Assembly: GCA_026692905.1 (NCBI GenBank)
Contig: JAPLNL010000119.1
Location: 62,001-126,000 of the forward strand
Direction of reading: 5' to 3'
DNA length: 64,000 nucleotides
Source: Planctomycetota bacterium
Lineage (GTDB): Bacteria; Planctomycetota; Planctomycetia; Pirellulales; Pirellulaceae
Position numbers and translations under genes: made by a program. This document shows positions 3,656 to 16,304 of the stretch, one piece after another. A model generated the notes under the pieces. The model made no database searches. It was not told where the DNA came from and was given only the letters and a program-made list of their open reading frames with translations. Within the stretch, counting starts at the first letter, position 1. Each line of letters opens with the position of its first letter.

Positions 3656-5488
3656 TCATTCCAGCTCGATTTGGTCTTGTCCGGTCGATTGCAGGTAGTG
3701 ACCCCAAAGAAGAAAGAGGCCACTCGTTGCGAAGTAACCACATGCAAGTTGCCACATCGATGATCGCATTCCGCTTGGGAGAATCCATGCGTCGGGAAGT
3801 CCTGGTACACCGACAGGCAAAAACAAGGCATTGTTGGGCACGGGGGAATGGATCAGTCCAAACAAGGTGAAGCCGCCAGCTATCGCGGCGAACACGGCAG
3901 CATGCTTCATTTTTCGGTCGATCGCCATGGCCAACAATGAGGCCCATAGCAAACTGGTCAGAATGAAGCCTTGCTTGAGGAGATGGACAGTCTGAAGATC
4001 GGACACTAGATCAGGGCGGAGCCTAAAGGCCGATTGAACCGTCTTCATTTGTTCGGCCATTGCTTCCTTTTCGGAGGCAAGCGAAGCGAGTCCATCGATG
4101 GCTTGTTGGATGTCTGGACGGAGCGAAGAATTACGGAGCGAAGAATCACGGAGCGAAGAATCACGGAGCGAAGAATCACCCAGCGAAATTCCGATGCCAC
4201 CCAAGAGCTGGTCTGCGTAAAGATAAGCCAAAAAGGCCAAAGCGGGAACGCAGGCAAAGACCAAGGCAGGGTAATGTCGTTTGGGAGTTGCCAAGAAGCT
4301 TTGAGCTGAAATTTCGAGTCCCACAAAGATCAAAATCGGATAGACCGCCGCTTTGGGAATGAGCATATAAAAGTAGCCGAAGCCCCCGAGCAATCCGATA
4401 GCTCCAACGGTAATCGCGGTACCAAGAACATAGGCAGCTCGTCCGCCCATCGCTTTGTAGGCTGGATGTCCGATGTACGGAGTCGTTTGTGTTACGCCAC
4501 CGAAGAGTCCAGCGACAAACGTCGCAAACGCTTCGACGCCCAATATTTGTCCCGTTGAATATTCGTCTCCTGCTGCGCTAGCTGACTCGGTGCAATCGAT
4601 ACCACCGACGACGGTACACAGAGCAAATGGGATGGCGACAGGTAGATAATTGATAGCTGGCCCCATTTGTTGCCACCAGCCAAAACCGAGGGCTGACATC
4701 CACGCAGTCGGAGGCAAACCTGGAGCAAGCGACGCCAATGTAGGTAGCGATTGTCCCGTCACTATGGTTTGGATGTAGTGAATGACGCCTCCAACCACTA
4801 GTGCTGCAAGCGTGCCCGGGATCTTGAATGGCAGAGGGACACGTCCGACCAAGCTGGTCAATACTATTGCCAGAGCCACGAGGCCGACGATGGGTTCACG
4901 AAATACATCTACCAGCGGAACGAAGCTGATAATGACCAGAGCGATCGAAGTTAGTGAGCCAAACAGGCCGGCTCGCGGGATAACTTTACGAACCCAAGCC
5001 CCACCGAATGAGCAAACGGTTTTGAAAATACCGGCATAGATCATACAGCAAATGCCAATATGCCAAGCAATCGTGGCTGCTTGTTCAGGTGAGGAGCCTG
5101 CCTTGAGGGCACTGGAGTAAGCAGCTCCGACCACAAAAATGGAGAGGCCAAAAATACTCGGCGTATCTAGCCCGAGCGGCATGGCGGTTACCTCTTGCCG
5201 GCCAGTCTTTTTGGCAAGCTGAAGAGCCATAAAAAAGTAAAGCAAATCACCGACCAACACACCGATGGCGGTTCCTGGGACCATGTGGTTCAGCACAAAT
5301 TCCTCGGGCATCTTAAAGCCCCCAACGAGGAGCCCAACCATCAAGACTAGGCCGGCGATGTTGTCCAAAAGCAGGCCAAAATAGGCGTTCACGTCACCTG
5401 AAGTTGCCCAGCGGTATCCACGATTCATTCGCAATTCCTCAGCTCGAGTCGGAAAATCTTTGGATGGAGAGACTAACATTGGTGTCAT
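3656..5488 (-). CDS. NCS2-like (xanthine/uracil permease superfamily) membrane transporter
   Basis: A polytopic membrane protein of about 610 residues with 12 or more hydrophobic segments. The stretch GGIDCTESASAAGDEY followed by TQTTPYIGHPAYKAMGGRA resembles the substrate-site region of NCS2/AzgA-type permeases, so a nucleobase-like or other small anion substrate is possible but not shown. A hydrophilic loop about three quarters along carries four copies of the pentapeptide DSSLR (one as NSSLR), encoded by a 15-bp tandem repeat, and a short helical stretch that has no counterpart in standard family members as far as I recall. ATG at 5488 is chosen; TTG at 5497 and ATG at 5479 are alternatives and none has a clear ribosome binding site. 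Confidence 0.75.
   Translation of the reverse strand: MTPMLVSPSKDFPTRAEELRMNRGYRWATSGDVNAYFGLLLDNIAGLVLMVGLLVGGFKMPEEFVLNHMVPGTAIGVLVGDLLYFFMALQLAKKTGRQEVTAMPLGLDTPSIFGLSIFVVGAAYSSALKAGSSPEQAATIAWHIGICCMIYAGIFKTVCSFGGAWVRKVIPRAGLFGSLTSIALVIISFVPLVDVFREPIVGLVALAIVLTSLVGRVPLPFKIPGTLAALVVGGVIHYIQTIVTGQSLPTLASLAPGLPPTAWMSALGFGWWQQMGPAINYLPVAIPFALCTVVGGIDCTESASAAGDEYSTGQILGVEAFATFVAGLFGGVTQTTPYIGHPAYKAMGGRAAYVLGTAITVGAIGLLGGFGYFYMLIPKAAVYPILIFVGLEISAQSFLATPKRHYPALVFACVPALAFLAYLYADQLLGGIGISLGDSSLRDSSLRDSSLRNSSLRPDIQQAIDGLASLASEKEAMAEQMKTVQSAFRLRPDLVSDLQTVHLLKQGFILTSLLWASLLAMAIDRKMKHAAVFAAIAGGFTLFGLIHSPVPNNALFLPVGVPGLPDAWILPSGMRSSMWQLACGYFATSGLFLLWGHYLQSTGQDQIELE
4119..4187. repeat. 15-bp tandem repeat inside the permease gene
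   Basis: Four tandem 15-bp units (CGGAGCGAAGAATCA, the first ending TTA) at 4119-4178, then a partial degenerate unit. The unit length keeps the reading frame and encodes repeated D-S-S-L-R on the minus strand. Copy number could change by slippage without breaking the protein. Confidence 0.95.
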
Positions 5489-5672
5489 TGCTGTCAATCA
5501 ATTTTGAAGAATCGGCGAATGTCCGACACCAATACTTTGACTTTGTAGATACGGATCGACTACAATGGTTATGAGGTGTATTTCCTCTTTCGGTGCTTAT
5601 TTTCCCTTAAAACAGCCCTGTTGCGACTTTCGACCGACTTCGTCGTCATACCTAGAATATCGAGATACAGCG

Positions 5673-6338
5673 ATGAAACCGCAAATGGATACCGGGCCCT
5701 TGGAATGGGATTTGTTGGGGCTCCAGTCACATCAGCATGAGCTGTCCGATGAGGAGATCGTTTCTGCGTATTTGGAGTCGAGAAATGCCCGAGATTTCGA
5801 AAGATTGGTTCAGCGGTATGAGCGAGAGCTATTTACCTTTTTGAGGCGGTTCCTGAGCGACGTCCAGCAGGCCGAGGATGTCTTTCAGGCAACCTTTCTG
5901 AGCGTGCATTTGCGAATCGATCAGTTCGAACCCGGTCGACGATTTCGACCCTGGCTTTATGCGATCGCCAGCAACAAGGCGATCGATTACATGCGCCGCA
6001 ATCGACGACACCAAGTCGCGAGTCTTGATGCCAAAATGTCTCACAGCGACTCCGAAGATTCGATGGTAAATCAATTGTCGGGAAGCGTTTCGCCCCCTGA
6101 CGAGAATGCGATGATTAATGAAACGAGTGCCCGGGTCCGAGCGGCCGTACAGGAGCTCAGCGCTCCCACTCAGCAACTGATTCAACTGGCCTTCTACCAG
6201 GGCATGAAATACTCCGACATCGCTGAGGTGCTCCAGATACCGCTTGGAACGGTAAAAAGTCGAGTTTTCACCGCAATTCGTAAACTGAATCAGATTTGGA
6301 TGCGTATGAATGATTCGTCTCCGAATGGCAATTCCTAG
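5673..6338 (+). CDS. ECF-type RNA polymerase sigma factor
   Basis: A 221-residue sigma-70 family factor. Region 2 spans about residues 38-112 (FERLVQRYERELFTFLRRF, DVFQATFLSVH, FRPWLYAIASNKAIDYMRRNRR) and region 4 about 155-208 with the helix-turn-helix YSDIAEVLQIPLGTVKSRVF. The sequence between them is longer than in the shortest ECF factors and acidic. ATG at 5673 gives the usual N terminus; the open frame upstream to 5565 is not sigma-like. The next gene, 71 bases downstream on the same strand, encodes a membrane protein that fits an anti-sigma partner. Target promoters are unknown. Confidence 0.9.
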   Translation: MKPQMDTGPLEWDLLGLQSHQHELSDEEIVSAYLESRNARDFERLVQRYERELFTFLRRFLSDVQQAEDVFQATFLSVHLRIDQFEPGRRFRPWLYAIASNKAIDYMRRNRRHQVASLDAKMSHSDSEDSMVNQLSGSVSPPDENAMINETSARVRAAVQELSAPTQQLIQLAFYQGMKYSDIAEVLQIPLGTVKSRVFTAIRKLNQIWMRMNDSSPNGNS

Positions 6339-6409
6339 GGCGGTAGACTTGCAGCATGGACGTGCTCTGTAGTTTGTTCTGAATCGCTTGCACAACTGAC
6401 AAAGCTTCG

Positions 6410-7423
6410 ATGAGTCGTAATCGCAGTATTTCTGACGAAACCCTTCTAGGGTATCTGCTATTGGCTTTGCCAGAGGACGAGCAGTGGCGAATTGAGAGCT
6501 TAGCATCGTCCGATTCCGTTCTTCAGCAGCGAATTCAGGATTTGCGGGAGTTGCTTTCGCCGCTACAAGCATGCTTGCAGCCTGCCGATCCGCCTTGCAA
6601 TTTGACCGCTTCAACGATGGCGATGATCGAACAGTCGCAAGGTTCCGCAGCAGAGCCTGGCCTAGCTGAATTGAAGATGACGCAGCCGTTGTACGAGTCC
6701 AGTCGGTCAACGCGTTTGGCTTGGATCGACAGTGTTGTGGCTCTCGTGGCGGGAATTGCCATCCTAACCGTTTTGCTTCCGAGTGTATGGTTTTCTCGAG
6801 AGTCGGCTAGACGAACTTCATGTGCTTCCAATTTACGTGAACTCGGACATGCGTTTGTCTTGTTTTCTCAGAACAATCCAGATCGTCAGCTCCCACGGAT
6901 CGACGTTAGCGGCCCGCTTTCCTTTGCTGGCGTGTACTCCATGCGATTGAAGGAGGCTGGACTTTTGGGGGCTTCCAAGTGGCTTTGGTGCCCGTCCGTT
7001 GAGAGTTTGAATGTTGGACAGGAGGTGCCGTCGGCGGAGGATTTTCTTTCTGCTTCCCCTGCAACACAAGAAAGGCTTCGATTCACAGTGGGAGGTAATA
7101 TGTCGTACAACCTTGGAAACATGGTTGATTCGGACTACAAGACGCCAAGCTTAAATGGTCGCACGTACTTTGCTGTATTAGGAGATTCATTGCCCAAAAT
7201 TGCGGAAGACGAATTGAAAGCAGTGCACGGAGCGAACGTGGCAAATGTTCTCTTTGACGACGGCCGGATCCAATCCATCCAAGTCAAGTGTCGGAATGTA
7301 TCTACATTGCTCGACAATCCTTATCTCAATCGGGATATGCAGCAAGCGGTTGGGAAAGGGCTGGGAGACACTTGTCTTGGGCCGAGTTTTCAGAATCCGT
7401 TCAAGCCGTTACGCAGCGAATAA
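6410..7423 (+). CDS. Putative anti-sigma membrane protein with a pilin-type (DUF1559-like) outer domain
   Basis: The N-terminal 100 residues (SDETLLGYLLLALPEDEQWRIE) resemble the cytoplasmic part of anti-sigma factors encoded next to ECF genes. One transmembrane helix follows at about 104-128. The outer part begins SRESARRTSCASNLRELGHA, which closely follows the AREAARRxxCxNNLKQxG pattern behind the pilin-like helix of planctomycete DUF1559 proteins. Near the end, H273...D284-G285 gives a variant of the H-X9-DG motif of those proteins (here ten residues between). The apparent fusion of a sigma-control segment to a pseudopilin-like domain is inferred from sequence; the family assignments are from memory of patterns. 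Probably co-transcribed with the upstream sigma gene. Confidence 0.65.
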   Translation: MSRNRSISDETLLGYLLLALPEDEQWRIESLASSDSVLQQRIQDLRELLSPLQACLQPADPPCNLTASTMAMIEQSQGSAAEPGLAELKMTQPLYESSRSTRLAWIDSVVALVAGIAILTVLLPSVWFSRESARRTSCASNLRELGHAFVLFSQNNPDRQLPRIDVSGPLSFAGVYSMRLKEAGLLGASKWLWCPSVESLNVGQEVPSAEDFLSASPATQERLRFTVGGNMSYNLGNMVDSDYKTPSLNGRTYFAVLGDSLPKIAEDELKAVHGANVANVLFDDGRIQSIQVKCRNVSTLLDNPYLNRDMQQAVGKGLGDTCLGPSFQNPFKPLRSE

Positions 7424-8081
7424 GAGCCATCAGAAGTTTCCATAATGCAAGGCAAATCGGAGTTGGGCTAGGGAGGAGGGATCTGAAGTAATGAGTGCCA
7501 ACCCACATTGGTGGCATTCGTACCCCGAAAAAGGCCGAAATACAACGTAGAATTCAGAGAAAGCAATTTAGTAGTATTAGTTTGGGGACTTCAGTACGGC
7601 TTTCGAGCAAATTGCGGCCAGAGCTAGTCGAGTGCCATTAGCGATATTTCTTTCCGAAATATTCAAAATCGACCTGTGTTGGTCTAGGCGGTATGGCGTG
7701 GATCGGTACACTCTTGGCTGTGAGTATTGGCATAATTGGCAATCCAGTTCCAGGCAGTAGACTTAGCGTCGTCACCTGTTTGGGCTTTTATTTGGGGGGA
7801 GAGAATTGGACGGATACTTTGTTGTTCAGATTCAATCTCCATTACCCACCCATTTTTACCGGATCGAGACCGACCGTGACAGGTTGCGTGTCTTTTCTGG
7901 TTCCTCTTCGGTTAATCGTTGCAAAATGCCTCACTTCTGTCGTCCGGCACATGCGTCTTTCCCGGTCGATGCGAGCAGTTGTGGCGATGTCTGTTGAGTC
8001 AAATCGACCAGCTTTCCGGCCCGACGTTTCGAATCATCTTACAATTCCTTTCAGATCCACTTTGAGAATTAGCTAGTCTCC
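7424..8081. other. 658-bp intergenic region upstream of rpoB
   Basis: No gene is supported here. A 127-codon open frame (7693-8076) ends just before rpoB but has no recognisable domain or ribosome binding site and an irregular composition. The ribosomal protein genes rplJ and rplL, which commonly precede rpoB, are absent. The rpoB promoter and leader must lie here; I cannot place a -35/-10 pair with confidence. Confidence 0.5.
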
Positions 8082-11000
8082 ATGGCAACATCCTCCAAGC
8101 GACGATTACAGCCCAAATCAATCCGTGTATTCGGTTCTGGCCGTAGTCAATTCCCTATTCCCAATTTGACCACTTTGCAGACGGCGTCTTACGAGGCGTT
8201 TTTGCAAGAGGACATTCCTTCGGATAAACGGAAAAACCAAGGGCTTGAGTCTGTCTTTCGTGAAATTTTCCCTGTTGAGAGCTATGACAAAACCGTCGCT
8301 CTTGAGTACTTGCGATACGAGCTTGGTAAGCCTCGCTACACGCCAGAGGAGTGTCGTCAGCTTCGGTTGACTTACGGCAAGCCTTTGAAGGTATGGTTTC
8401 GGTTGAAGCGAGATCAGCCGCTTGAAGAAGAAGTGTATTTGGGCGACGTCCCGATTATGCTCGGTGGTGGGGAGTTTATTATTAACGGTGCGGAGCGTGT
8501 GGTGGTAAGCCAGTTGCACCGATCGCCTGGCGTTGACTTTGTTGAGGAATCCGAAGGCACATCCGAGCGGAAGCTCCCGTCTGCCCGTGTGATTCCAGAG
8601 CGGGGTAGCTGGATCGAAATCAATGTCACTAAGAAGGATTCGTTGTCGGTTCGAATTGACCAGTCTGGTAAGTTCTCGGTGATGACGCTTCTGCGTGCAA
8701 TGTCGCCTAAGTTGAGCACTGAGCAGGATTTGCTGAATGCGTTTTACCAAATCACCCCGGAAAAGCTTTCGGGTGGAGGCAGCGTTGCCAAGATCGAAAA
8801 CAAGATCGCGGGGGATGATGTTGTTTATCCGGCGGACCACGAGCGAGCAGGTGAGATCATCATTGAAGCTGGTCAGAAGTTCACCAAGGCGCTTGCTGAA
8901 ACCGTTTGTACTAGCGGTGTGAAGAGTGTGCAGGTGATGGACTCGCCCAAGGTCCCTTATATCATTAATTCGATCGCGGAAGACAATACGAATTCGCACG
9001 AAGAGGCTTTGCTGCGAATCTATCAAAGGCTTCGTCCTGGTAATCCGCCAGCATTGGAAAAGGCTCGAACGCTTTTTCATGAAAAGTTCTTCGATATCAA
9101 TCGCTACCGTCTCGGTCGTGTGGGGCGATTTCGTGTGAATCGCAAGCTTGCGTTGGAAGTGCCTGAGGATGAGATGGCGCTGCGTCCGGAGGATTTGGTC
9201 GCCTCGATCAGATACTTGATCGATTTGTTCGACAGCGAGTCCAACGCTCGCTTTGACGACATTGACCACCTTGGTAATCGACGTTTGCGAACGATCGACG
9301 AACTGGCTTGCGAGGAGCTCCGCAAGGGCTTTTTGAAGCTGCGTCGAACGGTCCAGGAGCGAATGAGTCTCAAGGAAGTTGAGGACATGACCCCTCGGTC
9401 GTTGGTGAATCCAAAGAGCATCAGCGCAGCGATCGAATATTTCTTCGGTCGTGGTGAGTTGTCGCAGGTCGTCGACCAGACCAACCCTCTGTCGCAGTTG
9501 ACGCACGAACGTCGTTTGTCGGCTCTTGGGCCGGGCGGTTTGAATCGAAAACGTGCAGGATTTGAAGTTCGTGACGTGCATATTTCGCACTATGGTCGTA
9601 TCTGCCCGATTGAGACTCCTGAAGGTACGAATATCGGTTTGATCAGTTCGCTCTCGATCTACGCTGGTGTTGACGAGTACGGATTCTTGGTGACTCCGTA
9701 CCGTAAAGTAGTTGAGGGCAAAGTCACCGAAGAAGTGGTCTGGCTCAGAGCGGACGAGGAATCCGATTCCTACATTGGACCAGCCGATTTGGCGGTCAAA
9801 GACGGAGCGTTGGTTGCCGGTCCGAGCTTGATCGCTCGTCACCGAAGCGATTTCGAAATCGTCCCTCCCGAAACCGTTCACTACATGGACATCGCTCCGA
9901 GTCAAATGATCGGTGTTTCCGCTGGTTTGATTCCGTTCCTTGAGCATGACGACGCCAATCGTGCGCTCATGGGTTCTAACATGCAGCGACAAGCGGTTCC
10001 GTTGTTGGTGGCCGAGCCAGCCATCGTTGGAACAGGTCTTGAGCGTGAGGTTGCTGCCAATAGCTCGATGGTGGTCCGTGCTCGCAAAGCTGGAAAGGTT
10101 ACCTACGTCGACTCGATGAGAATCGAAGTGGGCAATGACATATACCATCTGAAGAAGTACCAAGGGCTGAACGAGCGCACATGCCTAAATCAGCGACCGA
10201 TCATCCAGATGGGGGACAAGGTTGAAAAGGGACAGATTATAGCCGATGGGGCCTCGACCCATTTAGGTGAGCTCGCACTTGGGCGAAACGTTCTGGTCGG
10301 TTTCATGTCGTTCGATGGCTACAACTACGAAGATGCGATCATCATCAGCGAAGAGTTGGTCAAGCAAGACGTTTACACCTCGATTCACATCGAAGAGTTT
10401 GACGTGGAAATTCGCGAGACCAAGCTTGGTCGCGAAGAGTTCACTCGGGACATTCCAAACGTGAGTGAGAAAGCCCTTCGCAATCTTGATGAAAGCGGTA
10501 TTGTTCAGATCGGTACATATGTTGCCCCCGGCGATATCCTCGTTGGCAAGGTTTCGCCGAAGAGCAAGACTGAGCTAACGCCGGAAGAAAAGTTGCTTCA
10601 TGCGATTTTCGGACGTGCGGGGGAAGACGTCAAGAACGACTCTCTAGAAGTGAGTTCGGGCGTTGAAGGCATCGTGATTGATACTCAGAAGTTTTCGCGT
10701 CGAATGAGTCTCTCTGAAGAGGAGCGAAAGGAATTCGAGAAGGAGCTCAAGCGAGTTGAGACCGAAGGTAACAAGGAGATCGCGACGTCGTTTGCGTCGT
10801 TTGCTGAAGAGCTTGAAAAAGCCATTGGCGGCAAGCTGACCGATGACGATGGTACTCCGTTGACCGGTGGCCAGGATCCGAAGTACATCGCGGAAAAGGC
10901 TCAAACGTTCAATTTGTCTCGTTTGATCAATCGACTTGATGCAGGTTTGCACGCAGAAGTCAAAAAGGTTTACAAGAACCTTTGGCCTGCTGTAGAAGAA

Positions 11001-11801
11001 GCACTCGATATTCGTGACCGTCAGCTTAACAGCATGAAGCGCGGCGACGAATTGCGGAGCGGCGTGCTTCAAATGGTCAAGGTCTACATTGCTACCAAGC
11101 GAGTTATTAGCGTTGGGGACAAGATGGCCGGTCGGCACGGTAACAAGGGGGTAATCTCCAAGGTGTTGCCAGTGGAAGACATGCCATTTTTGCCGGACGG
11201 TACTCCGTTGCAGATCATGTTGAATCCGCTTGGGGTTCCAAGCCGTATGAACGTCGGTCAGATTTTGGAGACTCACTTGGGTTGGGCGGGGGCTACTTCG
11301 GGCTTCCAAGCTCTGACACCGGTCTTCGATGGAGCAACCGAAGGAGACATCAACGACGCGTTAGAGCAAGCGGGATTGCCGCGTCACGGCAAAATCAAGC
11401 TGTATGACGGCCGAACAGGCGAGCAAATGAACCAAGAGACCACTGTTGGTTACATTTACATGCTCAAGTTGCATCACCTTGTTGACGACAAAGTCCATGC
11501 TCGAAGCACGGGGCCTTACTCGCTCATCACCCAGCAACCGCTCGGTGGTAAAGCAAGATTTGGTGGCCAGCGATTCGGGGAAATGGAAGTGTGGGCTCTC
11601 GAAGCTTACGGTGCAGCGTACATCCTTCAGGAACTGCTGACAGTGAAGAGCGACGACGTCGAAGGTCGAACGAAGATTTACGAATCGATGGTCAAGGGCG
11701 AGAACACACTGGAAGCCGGAACGCCAGCGAGCTTCGACGTTTTGACCAATGAAATTCGTGGTCTTGCATTGAACATGCGACTCGAAAAGCGACGCCTGTA
11801 G
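8082..11801 (+). CDS. rpoB: RNA polymerase beta subunit RpoB
   Basis: Second-largest core subunit of RNA polymerase, 1239 residues. Seen in order: beta protrusion and lobe ([40 protein letters not shown]), the rifampicin-pocket region at about 454-490 ending in [10 protein letters not shown], then [25 protein letters not shown], the hybrid-binding region [18 protein letters not shown], the [13 protein letters not shown] motif, [14 protein letters not shown] and the C-terminal clamp segment ending in LRLEKRRL-like sequence. Start ATG at 8082 fits the family N terminus. rpoC follows after 192 bases on the same strand. Confidence 0.99.
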
Positions 11802-11993
11802 TCAAACGCGATAGCAGGTTCCGGCTTGCGATAGCATGACATGTCCTCAGTAATCAACCAAAAACGCGAGATTCGATACGGGTCTCGCAAACTTAAATAA
11901 GCATTCTCCACCCTCACTTATCACCTTAGACGATTCCCATTTGACTTGCTGTCGAGTTAAATGCCGAGTTGTTGAGAACAGGAGTTTTTCGTA

Positions 11994-14900
11994 ATGGCCA
12001 ATGCCGAAGCCACCTACGATCGCGTAAACGATTACACCTCAGTCAAGATTTCTCTAGCGAGACCCCAGGACATTCGTTCTTGGTCGTTCGGTGAAGTCAA
12101 GAAGCCTGAGACCATCAACTACCGTACCTACCGTCCGGAAAAAGATGGTCTTTTCTGCGAACGGATTTTTGGCCCTGAAAAGGACTGGGAGTGCGCTTGC
12201 GGTAAGTACCGCGGGATGAAGTACAAAGGGATGATTTGCGATCGCTGCGGTGTTAAGGTTACGCACTCGCGCGTTCGACGCAAGCGAATGGGCCACATTG
12301 AATTGGCGGCACCCGTTGCTCACATTTGGTTCTTCAAGGCCATGCCAAGCCGCTTGGGCAATTTGCTCGAGATGAAGACCACGAGTCTCGAGAAGGTTAT
12401 TTACTTCCAGGATTACGTTGTCACTAACGCTGGAACGACTGAGCTTGAAAACCAACAGCTTTTGACCGAAGAAGAGTATCGAGCCGCTCGCGCTCAATAC
12501 GGGGAAGCATTCGAAGCCGACATGGGCGCCGAAGCGGTTCGCAAGCTGCTGCAGTCACTTGATTTGGTAAAGCTCTCCGAAGTACTCCGTGTTGAGCTGG
12601 CAGAGACAAGCAGTAAGCAGCGCAAGAAGGACTTGATCAACCGGCTGAAACTGGTGGAATCGATTCGCGACAGCGAAAACCGTCCTGAGTGGATGGTTCT
12701 CGACGTTATTCCTGTGATTCCGCCTGATCTTCGTCCATTGGTTCTGTTGGATAGCGGCAACTTCGCAACGTCCGACTTGAACGACCTCTATCGTCGTATT
12801 ATCAATCGAAACAATCGATTGCGCAAGCTGGTCGATTTGAATGCTCCTGAAGTCATCATCCGCAATGAAAAGCGTATGCTTCAGCAGTCCGTCGATGCGT
12901 TGTTTGACAACGGCCGTTGCAAACGTCCCGTTTTGGGCAGCAGCAACCGCCCGCTCAAGTCGCTGACCGACATGATCAAGGGCAAGCAAGGTCGATTCCG
13001 CGAAAATCTCCTGGGTAAGCGAGTCGACTACTCGGCGCGAAGCGTTATCGTGGTTGGGCCGCGACTTCGATTGCACCAATGCGGCCTGCCAAAGAAGATC
13101 GCTTTGGAATTGTATCAGCCGTTCATCATTCGCAAGCTGAAAGAGCTTGGACACGCTGACACGATCAAGTCGGCGAAGAAGATGTTGGAACGCAAGGACG
13201 AAGAAGTTTGGGATATCCTTGAACAGGTGATTCGCAATCACCCAGTGCTTCTCAATCGAGCTCCAACGCTTCACCGAATGGGTATTCAAGCGTTTGAACC
13301 GATCTTGGTCGAAGGCAACGCGATTCACTTGCACCCGTTGGTTTGTAAGGGGTTCAATGCCGACTTCGACGGTGACCAGATGGCTGTGCACTTGCCTCTC
13401 TCGATCGAGGCACAGGTCGAAGCTCACACTCTGATGATGAGCACGCACAACATTTTCGCGCCGAGCAATGGCAAGCCGATCATGAGTCCATCGCAGGATA
13501 CTGTGATGGGTTGCAACTACATCACTGTGGAGTTGCCTGACCAAAAGGGTGAGGGCATGACCTTTGCCACGATGATGGAAGCCGATTATGCGAATCAGCA
13601 AGGTGTCATAGCCATGCACGCGAAGATCAAAGTCCGGTTGCCAAAGGATCGACGTCTCAAGTCGGATGAGCCGAGTGCAAAGTACGGTGCGGTCATACAA
13701 ACCACCTTCGGTCGAATTTTGTTCAATTCGATTTTGCCGCAGGGAATGGACTTCTACAATATGCCTCTTAAGGGTAGCGACTTGGCTGCCGTTATTAGCG
13801 ACTGCTATCATCGTCTAGGCCGTCGACCAACGATTAAATTGTTGGACGATATGAATCAACTCGGTTTTCGCGAGTCGACCAAGAGCGGTCTTTCATTCGG
13901 TGCCGACGACCTTGTGACACCCACATCCAAGATCAAGCACATCGCCGACGCGGACAAAAAGGTGATGATGTTCCAGAAGAACTATTTCAAGGGGGTTATG
14001 ACCGCCAAGGAACGGTACAATCAGGTTCTGGAAGCTTGGACGGCAACGCGAGATTTTATCACTACCGACATGATGCTCGCGATGAAGAACGATACCCACC
14101 GCGGCAATTGGTACATCAACCCTGTGTTTTTGATGGCGAACTCCGGTGCACGAGGTGGTATCGAGCAGATTCGACAATTGGCGGGTATGCGAGGTCTGAT
14201 GGCCAAGCCGACGGGCGAAATCATCGAAACGCCGATCAAGTCCAACTTCCGGGAAGGGTTAACCGTACTCGAGTACTTCAGCTCGACGCACGGTGCTCGT
14301 AAGGGCTTGGCAGATACGGCCCTCAAGACGGCTGACTCCGGTTATTTGACTCGTAAGCTGGCCGACGTTGCACAAAACGTGGTCATCACCATGAACGACT
14401 GCGGAACCACCCAAGGGATTACCAAGGGTGTTATCTACCGAGGCGAAAAGGTCGAAGTCAAGCTTGCCGACTCGATCGCTGGTCGTGTAAGTCGTCAAAA
14501 CATCGTCAATCTGATCACTTCGGAAACGATTGTCGGCGAAGATCAAATGATCACTCGCGAAATCGCTCGCAAGATCGAAGAGATGGGCTTGGAAAAGATC
14601 CAAGTCAGGTCGCCAATGACTTGCGATGCCCCGCTCGGTATCTGCCGTACTTGCTACGGCATGGACATGAGTACCGGTGCACTCGTCGAAGAGGGAATGG
14701 CGGTTGGAATTATCGCCGCACAAAGCATCGGTGAACCTGGAACGCAGTTAACCATGCGTACCTTCCACCGAGGTGGTGAAGCCGGTACGAGCTTGATCGA
14801 TAACGACATCAAGGCCAAGAAGGGTGGTATCGTCAAGTTCTTGAAGATGCGTTTGGTTACCAACGATGACGGACACGACGTGGTCTTAACCCGTAATTGC

Positions 14901-16304
14901 GAAATTGCCCTGGTTGACGCCAAGGGTCGCGAAATCGACCGATACGACGTTCCATCCGGTGCTCGCTTGAGCGTCAAGGAAGACCAAGAAATCGTCAAGG
15001 ACCAGCAAATTTGCCAGTGGAATCCACACAAGATTCCAATCTTTGCAACTGCCAGCGGTAAGGTCGTTTTCGTTGATATCATCGAAGGCGAAACCATGAA
15101 GCTGGAAAAAGATACCGGCGGTATTATCCGACGACGTATCATGGATGCACGCGGAAAGTTCCATCCGCAAATCGTGATTGAAGACGCTGACGGAAAGGCT
15201 ATCGACGTACACTACCTACCTGACCGTGCGTTGATCAACTGCACAGAAGGCAAGCAAGTAAACGCAGGTACCGAGTTGGCGGAAATCGACCGAGAAGCGA
15301 CCGGGGTGAGTGACATCACCGGTGGTCTGCCTCGAGTTACCGAAATCTTCGAAGCTCGAAAGCCAAAGGATCCAGCCGTTGTTGCTGAACTCGACGGTAT
15401 TGTTGAAATTTCGAAGGACCGCAAACGCGGTAAGCGATCGATTGTGGTTCGTAGCGAGAGCGGCGAAGAAACGGAACACTTGGTGCCACCAGGCAAACGA
15501 TTCATGGTCACTTCGGGAGACTCCGTTAAGGCGGGTCAGGCGCTCGTTGAAGGTCCACTGGTGCCACACGACATTCTTCGAGTCAGCGGTGAAGAAGCCG
15601 TACAGCAGTACTTGGTACACGAAGTACAACAAGTTTATCGTCTCCAGAAAGTGGAAATCAGCGATAAGCACATCGAGATCATCATCGCTCGAATGTTGCG
15701 TAAGATTAAGATCACGAACGCTGGCGATACGAACTTGTTGTCCGGATTGGTCATGGACCGATTTGAATTCAAGCGACACAACGATCAACTTGCGAAGTGC
15801 TTGAAGATCTCGGATCCAGGCGACACCGAGTTTGCACTCGGTGCGATTGTTCCGAAAGAAGCTTTCGAAACATCCAATGCTCAGTGCGAAGCCCTCGGTG
15901 GCAAGGCAGCCAAGGGCAAGAAGCCGAAGCCGGCTCACGGCGAAGTTCAGTTGCTGGGTATTACCAAGGCAGCTGTTCAAAGCAATAGCTTTATCTCGGC
16001 AGCAAGCTTCCAGGAAACGACCAAGGTACTGACCGAAGCAGCATTGGCTGGCAAGGTTGATAGGCTGGTCGGTCTAAAGGAAAACGTGATTCTCGGTCAC
16101 TTGATCCCAGCAGGTACTGGTTTCCGAATCTTCCAAGATTCGGAAGTTAGCTATCGCAAGGAAGCCTTGGAAGACCTTGTCAATCGTGGAACGGCTGCAG
16201 CTGAGCAAAGTTTCCCGTTGCTAGCGGATGCACCGCGACCACAAACGGGTGCCGAGTCGGTACAGCCGCCATCGGTTTCCGATGCGGAAGTAAACGACGA
16301 GTAG
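11994..16304 (+). CDS. rpoC: RNA polymerase beta' subunit RpoC
   Basis: Largest core subunit, 1436 residues. The N-terminal zinc site is C-x-C...C-x2-C ([14 protein letters not shown]), the catalytic magnesium site is NADFDGD at residues 455-461, followed by the bridge-helix and trigger-loop regions and the second zinc site (DCG... [13 protein letters not shown]). The C-terminal 60 residues run past the last conserved block. A good AGGAG lies 10 bases before ATG 11994. Together with rpoB it forms one transcription unit closed by the terminator at 16334. Confidence 0.99.

Follow-up and report, generated by a model that had tools for sequence, protein, structure and literature searches.

The window (the whole stretch of DNA analysed, 64,000 nucleotides of a Planctomycetota contig) contains a two-gene ECF unit. 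Sequence comparison and structure prediction show that it is composed of a sigma factor gene and a gene for a one-span protein, which has a predicted anti-sigma domain of the class I type inside the cell and a putatively uncleaved DUF1559/H-X9-DG pilin-like module in and outside the membrane. On these grounds we regard the architecture, a sigma factor paired with an anti-sigma/pilin fusion, as practically certain; it is real and conserved, and would add a new type of sensor to a regulator of a known kind. As to function, the best overall explanation, to which we give about an even chance, is that the anchored, uncleaved pilin-like module, packing with pilins or with the platform, controls the release of the sigma factor. 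The features of the unit are as follows.

5537-5566 (+): promoter-like site of the sigma70 type, TTGACT-18-TACAAT, 5′ of the sigma gene (pattern seen by eye)
5673-6338 (+): ECF sigma factor, 221 aa (Pfam regions 2 and 4; TIGR02937)
6410-7423 (+): anti-sigma/pilin-like fusion, 337 aa (profiles and AlphaFold)
6410-6649 (+): residues 1-80 of the fusion, predicted cytoplasmic anti-sigma-type domain with helices at 9-16, 22-34, 36-53 and 65-78 (AlphaFold, VIA-align, NF052375)
6710-6871 (+): residues 101-154, single continuous helix equivalent to pilin alpha-1 and the only membrane segment (AlphaFold, alignment with solved pilins)
6728-6730 (+): codon of D107, position 5 in pilin numbering, the E5 equivalent (acidic in 120/131 distinct segments)
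6779-6781 (+): codon of P124, position 22 in pilin numbering (invariant in alignment A1)
6872-7342 (+): residues 155-311, predicted extracytoplasmic alpha/beta domain, which includes C194 and H-X10-DG (AlphaFold, VIA-align)
7226-7228 (+): codon of H273, start of H-X10-DG
7259-7264 (+): codons of D284 and G285, end of H-X10-DG

The first protein was identified as an ECF sigma factor by sigma-70 regions 2 and 4, both of which exceeded the Pfam cut-offs (Sigma70_r2, E 2.2e-18, 66.2 bits, cut-off 24; Sigma70_r4_2, E 4.3e-12, 45.9 bits, cut-off 25.7); NCBIfam TIGR02937 also matched it (E 1.6e-33). The longest ORF for this gene is open from position 5565. The site upstream was called promoter-like by comparison with the sigma70 consensus, and the same pattern was seen by eye 5′ of most of 16 sigma genes of the same genus. 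A regulon search by promoter motif was rejected, since this conserved site is sigma70-like: with a housekeeping-type promoter, the sigma gene has no self-regulated promoter that could reveal the regulon, a point that weighs against the best explanation. The fusion gene begins 71 bases past the end of the sigma gene, on the same strand.

The pair is adjoined by a divergent gene (3659-5497, minus strand) for a 613-aa membrane protein, presumably permease-like, which had no Pfam match at E<=1e-5 and contains short SLRDSSLRD repeats, in frame and in a row; within the order, many other genomes likewise have a homolog beside the pair. The rpoB and rpoC genes come after the pair in the window (8082-16304). 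This neighbourhood is not general, since no rpoB was found near the pair at the other examined loci of the order, where the flanks are short in many cases.

Taken by themselves, the two proteins of the window leave the case undecided, because the matches of the fusion to the relevant profiles are sub-threshold; it is the family that settles it. PF07596 (DUF1559) matched the window fusion with an E of 0.0038 and 17.8 bits over 20 residues, below the curated cut-off of 23.3 bits, so that the protein is related to this family, not filed as a member; NF052375 (antisigma) gave an E of 1.1e-8, below its own 100-bit cut-off. Among 33 aligned orthologs, NF052375 matched 31, PF07596 21 and TIGR04294 four at E<=0.01. 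With a profile built from these 33 sequences, prepilins from other classes of the phylum were matched (model positions ~88-298; best E 3.3e-28), and the pilin-like module of the fusion spans residues ~101-311. In searches of 294 phylum genomes, matches covering the N-terminal half of the fusion were strong only within the same order, and the C-terminal half also found prepilins in other classes. A comparison of the profiles of alignments A3 and A6 gave an E of 7e-64, a match which is not independent because the window protein is common to both. Divergence within the fusion is greatest in its outer domain (mean column identity 18% in alignment A5). Besides C194, the other conserved cysteine is C138, located inside the membrane helix. 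A zinc-type H-x3-C-x2-C was seen by eye in the inner domain of a few distant members (L101, L141 and L144).

The AlphaFold model of the window fusion (built on 43 sequences, mean pLDDT 86.5) consists of four inner helices, a loose linker, one 54-residue helix and an alpha/beta domain. A member from the Phycisphaerae (L190) was modelled alike, with helices at 16-23, 28-40, 42-60 and 70-80, then 111-161 (pLDDT 88.3); the four-helix topology is therefore common to two independent models from different classes. When the inner halves were compared with solved structures by VIA-align, anti-sigma domains were recovered for both the window model (ChrR Z 8.0, RsiW 5.7, RskA 5.0; one unrelated row, 7obq_u, Z 3.0) and L190 (ChrR Z 6.8, RsiW 5.4, RskA 4.8, RslA 5.6, RseA 4.4). 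The pilin halves matched pilins only (window model: 9iuf Z 4.6, 8uhf 4.3, 5v23 4.2, 3sok 3.9; L190: 6xxd Z 5.5, 8tj2 3.2). The predicted alpha/beta domain aligned with whole pilins over 119-136 residues at modest scores (Z 3.9-4.6), with a globular head on alpha-1 as in pilins; PilV aligned over 87 residues of the window model (Z 4.2). Fold scores of this size (Z 3-6) are modest and count against the best explanation. Foldseek returned no match in the PDB at E<=0.001, and the fold statement rests on VIA-align. When all PDB chains were searched with a sequence-only profile, nine matched at E<=1. Five of these are pilins or pseudopilins and one is RskA; the other three comprise two engineered fusion proteins and a leucine zipper. 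Excerpts of PMC7406223 define class I (ASDI) anti-sigma factors by an N-terminal four-helix anti-sigma domain. Such a domain was found in the fusion by both AlphaFold models, by VIA-align and by NF052375, and the co-encoding with an ECF sigma gene that is typical of the class was observed as well (see the counts below).

The original prediction, which had been made from the letters of the DNA, was borne out in part, namely in its design, by these results. It had described an ECF sigma gene directly followed by a one-helix membrane protein, the inner part of which looked anti-sigma-like; it had also named SRESARRTSCASNLRELG and H-X10-DG as the pilin-like motifs, both of which (the latter starting at H273) are present in the 337-aa protein. 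The relation of the outer part to DUF1559, the absence of which was one of two refuting conditions named with the prediction, is upheld by the ortholog matches, the prepilin matches and the pilin folds. In one respect the prediction is refined: likeness to pilins extends beyond the outer domain and starts already where the membrane helix does, on its cytoplasmic side. That the outer domain would gate transcription was also proposed, and we return to this below.

The same arrangement, for which a search behind other ECF genes had been proposed, recurs widely. A sigma ortholog was present (E<=1e-40) in 58/60 related genomes, and a pilin-type partner adjoined it on the same strand in 57 of the 59 relatives examined (G003 was left out). 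One of the two misses, G022, has the two halves at contig ends that neighbour each other; the other, G038, has two sigma copies without a pilin-type partner. Among named genome records, the partner lay directly 3′ of the sigma gene at 62 of the 67 best relatives and at none of 13 weaker ones. The former count was read from whole open frames; a cruder ORF method gave 56/67. The partner-less loci are L154, L157, L178, and also L177 and L179, in which the sequence ends within 923 and 636 bases, respectively. At L157 (Aporhodopirellula), genes resembling MotA and MotB were seen by eye after the sigma gene (around 5600-8300) instead of the fusion. The named relatives include Rhodopirellula, Rubripirellula, Mariniblastus, Botrimarina, Thermoguttaceae, Gemmataceae, Singulisphaera acidiphila and Phycisphaerae.

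Across the phylum, the sigma profile matched 55/294 genomes at E<=1e-45, and a pilin-like partner was present at 29 of the 30 loci fetched, a set in which L205 and L143 are weak members; the sets of loci overlap (L032 and L149 are the same contig, judged by length). The exception, L119, belongs to genome G332, in which some other gene comes after the sigma gene and a pilin-type anti-sigma gene lies on another contig (L114:5528-6703). In family f21, 16 genomes had no sigma match at E<=1e-45 though DUF1559-type proteins match there; proteins of this type therefore do not require the pair. Its absence from some planctomycete orders rich in DUF1559 pilins counts against the best explanation.

If the second protein were not an anti-sigma factor at all, but an unrelated membrane protein or an activator travelling with the sigma gene, neither the anti-sigma profile and fold matches of its inner half nor its position next to the genes of a single ECF group, one to one, throughout the phylum would be expected, and we consider this very improbable. 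Mutual information was no higher between the sigma factor and the anti-sigma half than between the sigma factor and the pilin half (z>4 in 0.51% vs 0.45% of pairs), and the top pairs look phylogenetic, so that we count this comparison neither for nor against contact. It was calculated with weighting and average-product correction from 115 sigma/fusion pairs (117 before removal of duplicates; effective number ~100), with the pilin-half columns as an internal control.

The membrane helix of the fusion retains part of the signature of pilins. According to excerpts of PMC10191384, pilin alpha-1 comprises 53 residues and has a hydrophobic start, except for Ser/Thr at position 2 and an invariant Glu5, followed by Gly14 and Pro22; the position-5 glutamate is needed by pilins for docking (excerpts of PMC5059446 and PMC10191384). 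Residues 101-154 of the window fusion aligned from residue 1 of solved pilins, with model residues 100-103 falling on pilin residue 1 in VIA-align; the sequence register agrees within a turn, and in the case of L190 the structure alignment is off the sequence register by about one turn. The fusion thus has the acid at position 5, the proline at position 22 and an alpha-1 of about 53 residues that are found in type IV pilins. In the window protein the acid is an aspartate, D107, where pilins have glutamate, and P124 stands 17 residues past it, the same spacing as in prepilins.

This acid is conserved throughout the family. Starting from 156 domain rows, we dropped nine with a gap and 11 with another residue at the proline column and merged identical sequences, which left 131 distinct segments; position 5 (17 residues before the register-22 proline) was acidic in 120 of them (D in 99, E in 21). 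Of the remaining positions between -1 and +21, each was acidic in 0-1%. In all 11 rows with another residue in place of the proline, inspection by eye nevertheless reveals a D or E at the expected place or beside it. As a control we used DUF1559 relatives of the same order without a prepilin site, which were acidic at this position in only 5/34 distinct segments (Fisher p 2.5e-18, a nominal value, since the sequences are related); 11/64 control matches had been left out because they had no hydrophobic stretch with a proline at its end, and a few of those kept look only weakly membrane-like. Proteins that cease to be pilins thus normally lose the acid as well; the fusion departs from this rule. 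Prepilins carried the position-5 glutamate in 31/31 cases, a count which is not used as evidence because it is partly circular (the seed pattern demanded the glutamate).

Several DUF1559-type proteins of other kinds were encountered. Non-pilin members with an uncleaved helix are common in the order, and at L113:9934-11460 two of them are adjacent, one of which keeps the position-5 acid and the other has lost it. A DUF1559-like domain without a pilin helix before it occupies the C-terminus of a large protein (L107:7305-9092), and at L093:1447-2751 there is a prepilin-like protein whose tail is very long, charged and repetitive, with many E, R and K residues.

Other pilin residues are not kept. 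The glycine at -1 that marks a prepilin cleavage site is replaced by R102 in the window fusion; arginine occupies this position in 55/131 segments and glycine in 12/131. Gly14, a further conserved pilin residue, is not retained in the family, and the loss of both glycines, as read from the alignment, probably speaks against assembly of the fusion into filaments. These losses bear on the idea that the fusion is still processed, with the prepilin peptidase cutting a non-canonical site, the anti-sigma domain serving as a very long leader and the rest joining the filament. Such processing would fit the W or F at +1 in 67/131 segments and the S or T at +2 in 39/131, as in pilins, and the 12 segments that keep the glycine; but 119/131, the window fusion among them, do not have it, and the helix-melting glycine 14 is gone, so that we hold this to be very unlikely. 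The few fusions with glycine before W or F (e.g. L152) might still be cleavable by a prepilin peptidase.

The retained acid favours a packing role for the module. We propose that, in the resting state, the four-helix domain would hold the sigma factor at the membrane, and that the pilin-like module would stay there uncleaved, unable to leave the membrane because the cleavage glycine is replaced. Its alpha-1 would pack against type IV pilin subunits or the assembly platform, as pilins pack on each other, and such packing would be the reason why the acid and the helix register are kept. A change in packing (caused by the free pilin pool, by filament assembly or by its blockage) would then free the sigma factor, either by conformational change or by proteolysis. 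We place a pilin-reading mechanism of this kind somewhere between tentative and evenly balanced. Its most specific form, in which an immobilised receptor pilin docks through alpha-1 with the free N-terminus of processed pilins, so that, throughout Planctomycetota, the sigma factor would sense how large the pilin pool is or how type IV filaments are assembled, is a tentative idea that leans towards doubtful. This form is testable by one point mutation, since a single acidic position is involved. Type IV filament parts were found in the sampled genomes (platform PF00482 in 18/18, DUF1559 in 18/18, prepilin peptidase PF01478 in 17/18), which fails to refute pilin reading and discriminates little, because most relatives carry such parts too.

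The main rival is an ordinary envelope sensor. Regulated intramembrane proteolysis is the usual mode of membrane anti-sigma factors, and the pilin-derived module could be a periplasmic sensor only (of a ligand or of envelope stress), no longer connected with pilins and cut in the manner of RseA and RsiW, with the acid serving helix capping, dimerisation or protease recognition. Besides this usual mode, the loss of Gly14 and of the cleavage glycine and the divergence of the outer domain point in this direction, and we regard the rival as plausible, if short of an even chance. It sits less easily with the position-5 acid, which is mostly gone from the non-pilin DUF1559 relatives of the same order and which, in the fusion, has been conserved from class to class as the sole acidic position among the first 21 residues.

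If pilin reading by the module is correct, the cell could make gene expression depend on the condition of its pilus-like filaments, and a pilin-derived sensor would be new among anti-sigma factors. Planctomycetes have tens of DUF1559 pilin-like genes per genome (74 in R. baltica and 68 paralogs in P. limnophila, according to excerpts of PMC2754498 and PMC10632474, respectively), and a conserved pair with a non-cleavable pilin sensor would provide a direct handle on their role and monitoring. In the literature search we found no paper joining DUF1559 with an anti-sigma factor, one paper mentioning both DUF1559 and ECF without linking them, and nothing fitting on planctomycetes, anti-sigma factors and pilins together; among the matches listed, none described an anti-sigma factor with a pilin-like, pseudopilin or prepilin part. 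The fusion may be tabulated as a group with an unnamed domain in the 2021 ECF reclassification or in the 2012/2020 planctomycete surveys, which lie outside this search.

Four kinds of known systems invite comparison. The class I (ASDI) anti-sigma factors RskA, RsiW and RseA and the soluble ChrR are like the fusion in the inner four-helix domain, the adjacent ECF gene and the one membrane span; the outer parts of the RskA, RsiW and RseA class are not known to be pilin-like. In contrast to these proteins, the span of the fusion is itself a pilin alpha-1 with the E5-P22 register. The DUF1559 (SBP_bac_10, PF07596) and H-X9-DG-CTERM (TIGR04294) prepilin-like proteins of Planctomycetota, which are ~220 aa long, share R-x2-A, C-x2-NL-x2-LG and H-Xn-DG with the fusion and match it over the full domain (E to 3e-28), but the fusion has an anti-sigma domain in place of the leader and no prepilin cleavage site, and its family has H-X10-DG, rather than H-X9-DG, in 84 of the 102 sequences with H-X8-12-DG. 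Minor (pseudo)pilins likewise have a single pilin-type helix with the E5 and P22 register; they are cleaved and assembled, whereas the fusion has a cytoplasmic domain and no cleavage glycine. A functional parallel would be PilS-PilR of Pseudomonas aeruginosa, for which excerpts of PMC6058289 provide the precedent of a membrane regulator that reads a pilin in the inner membrane: PilS is a six-span histidine kinase which detects PilA, whereas in the system proposed here the regulator would itself be derived from a pilin and would hold a sigma factor.
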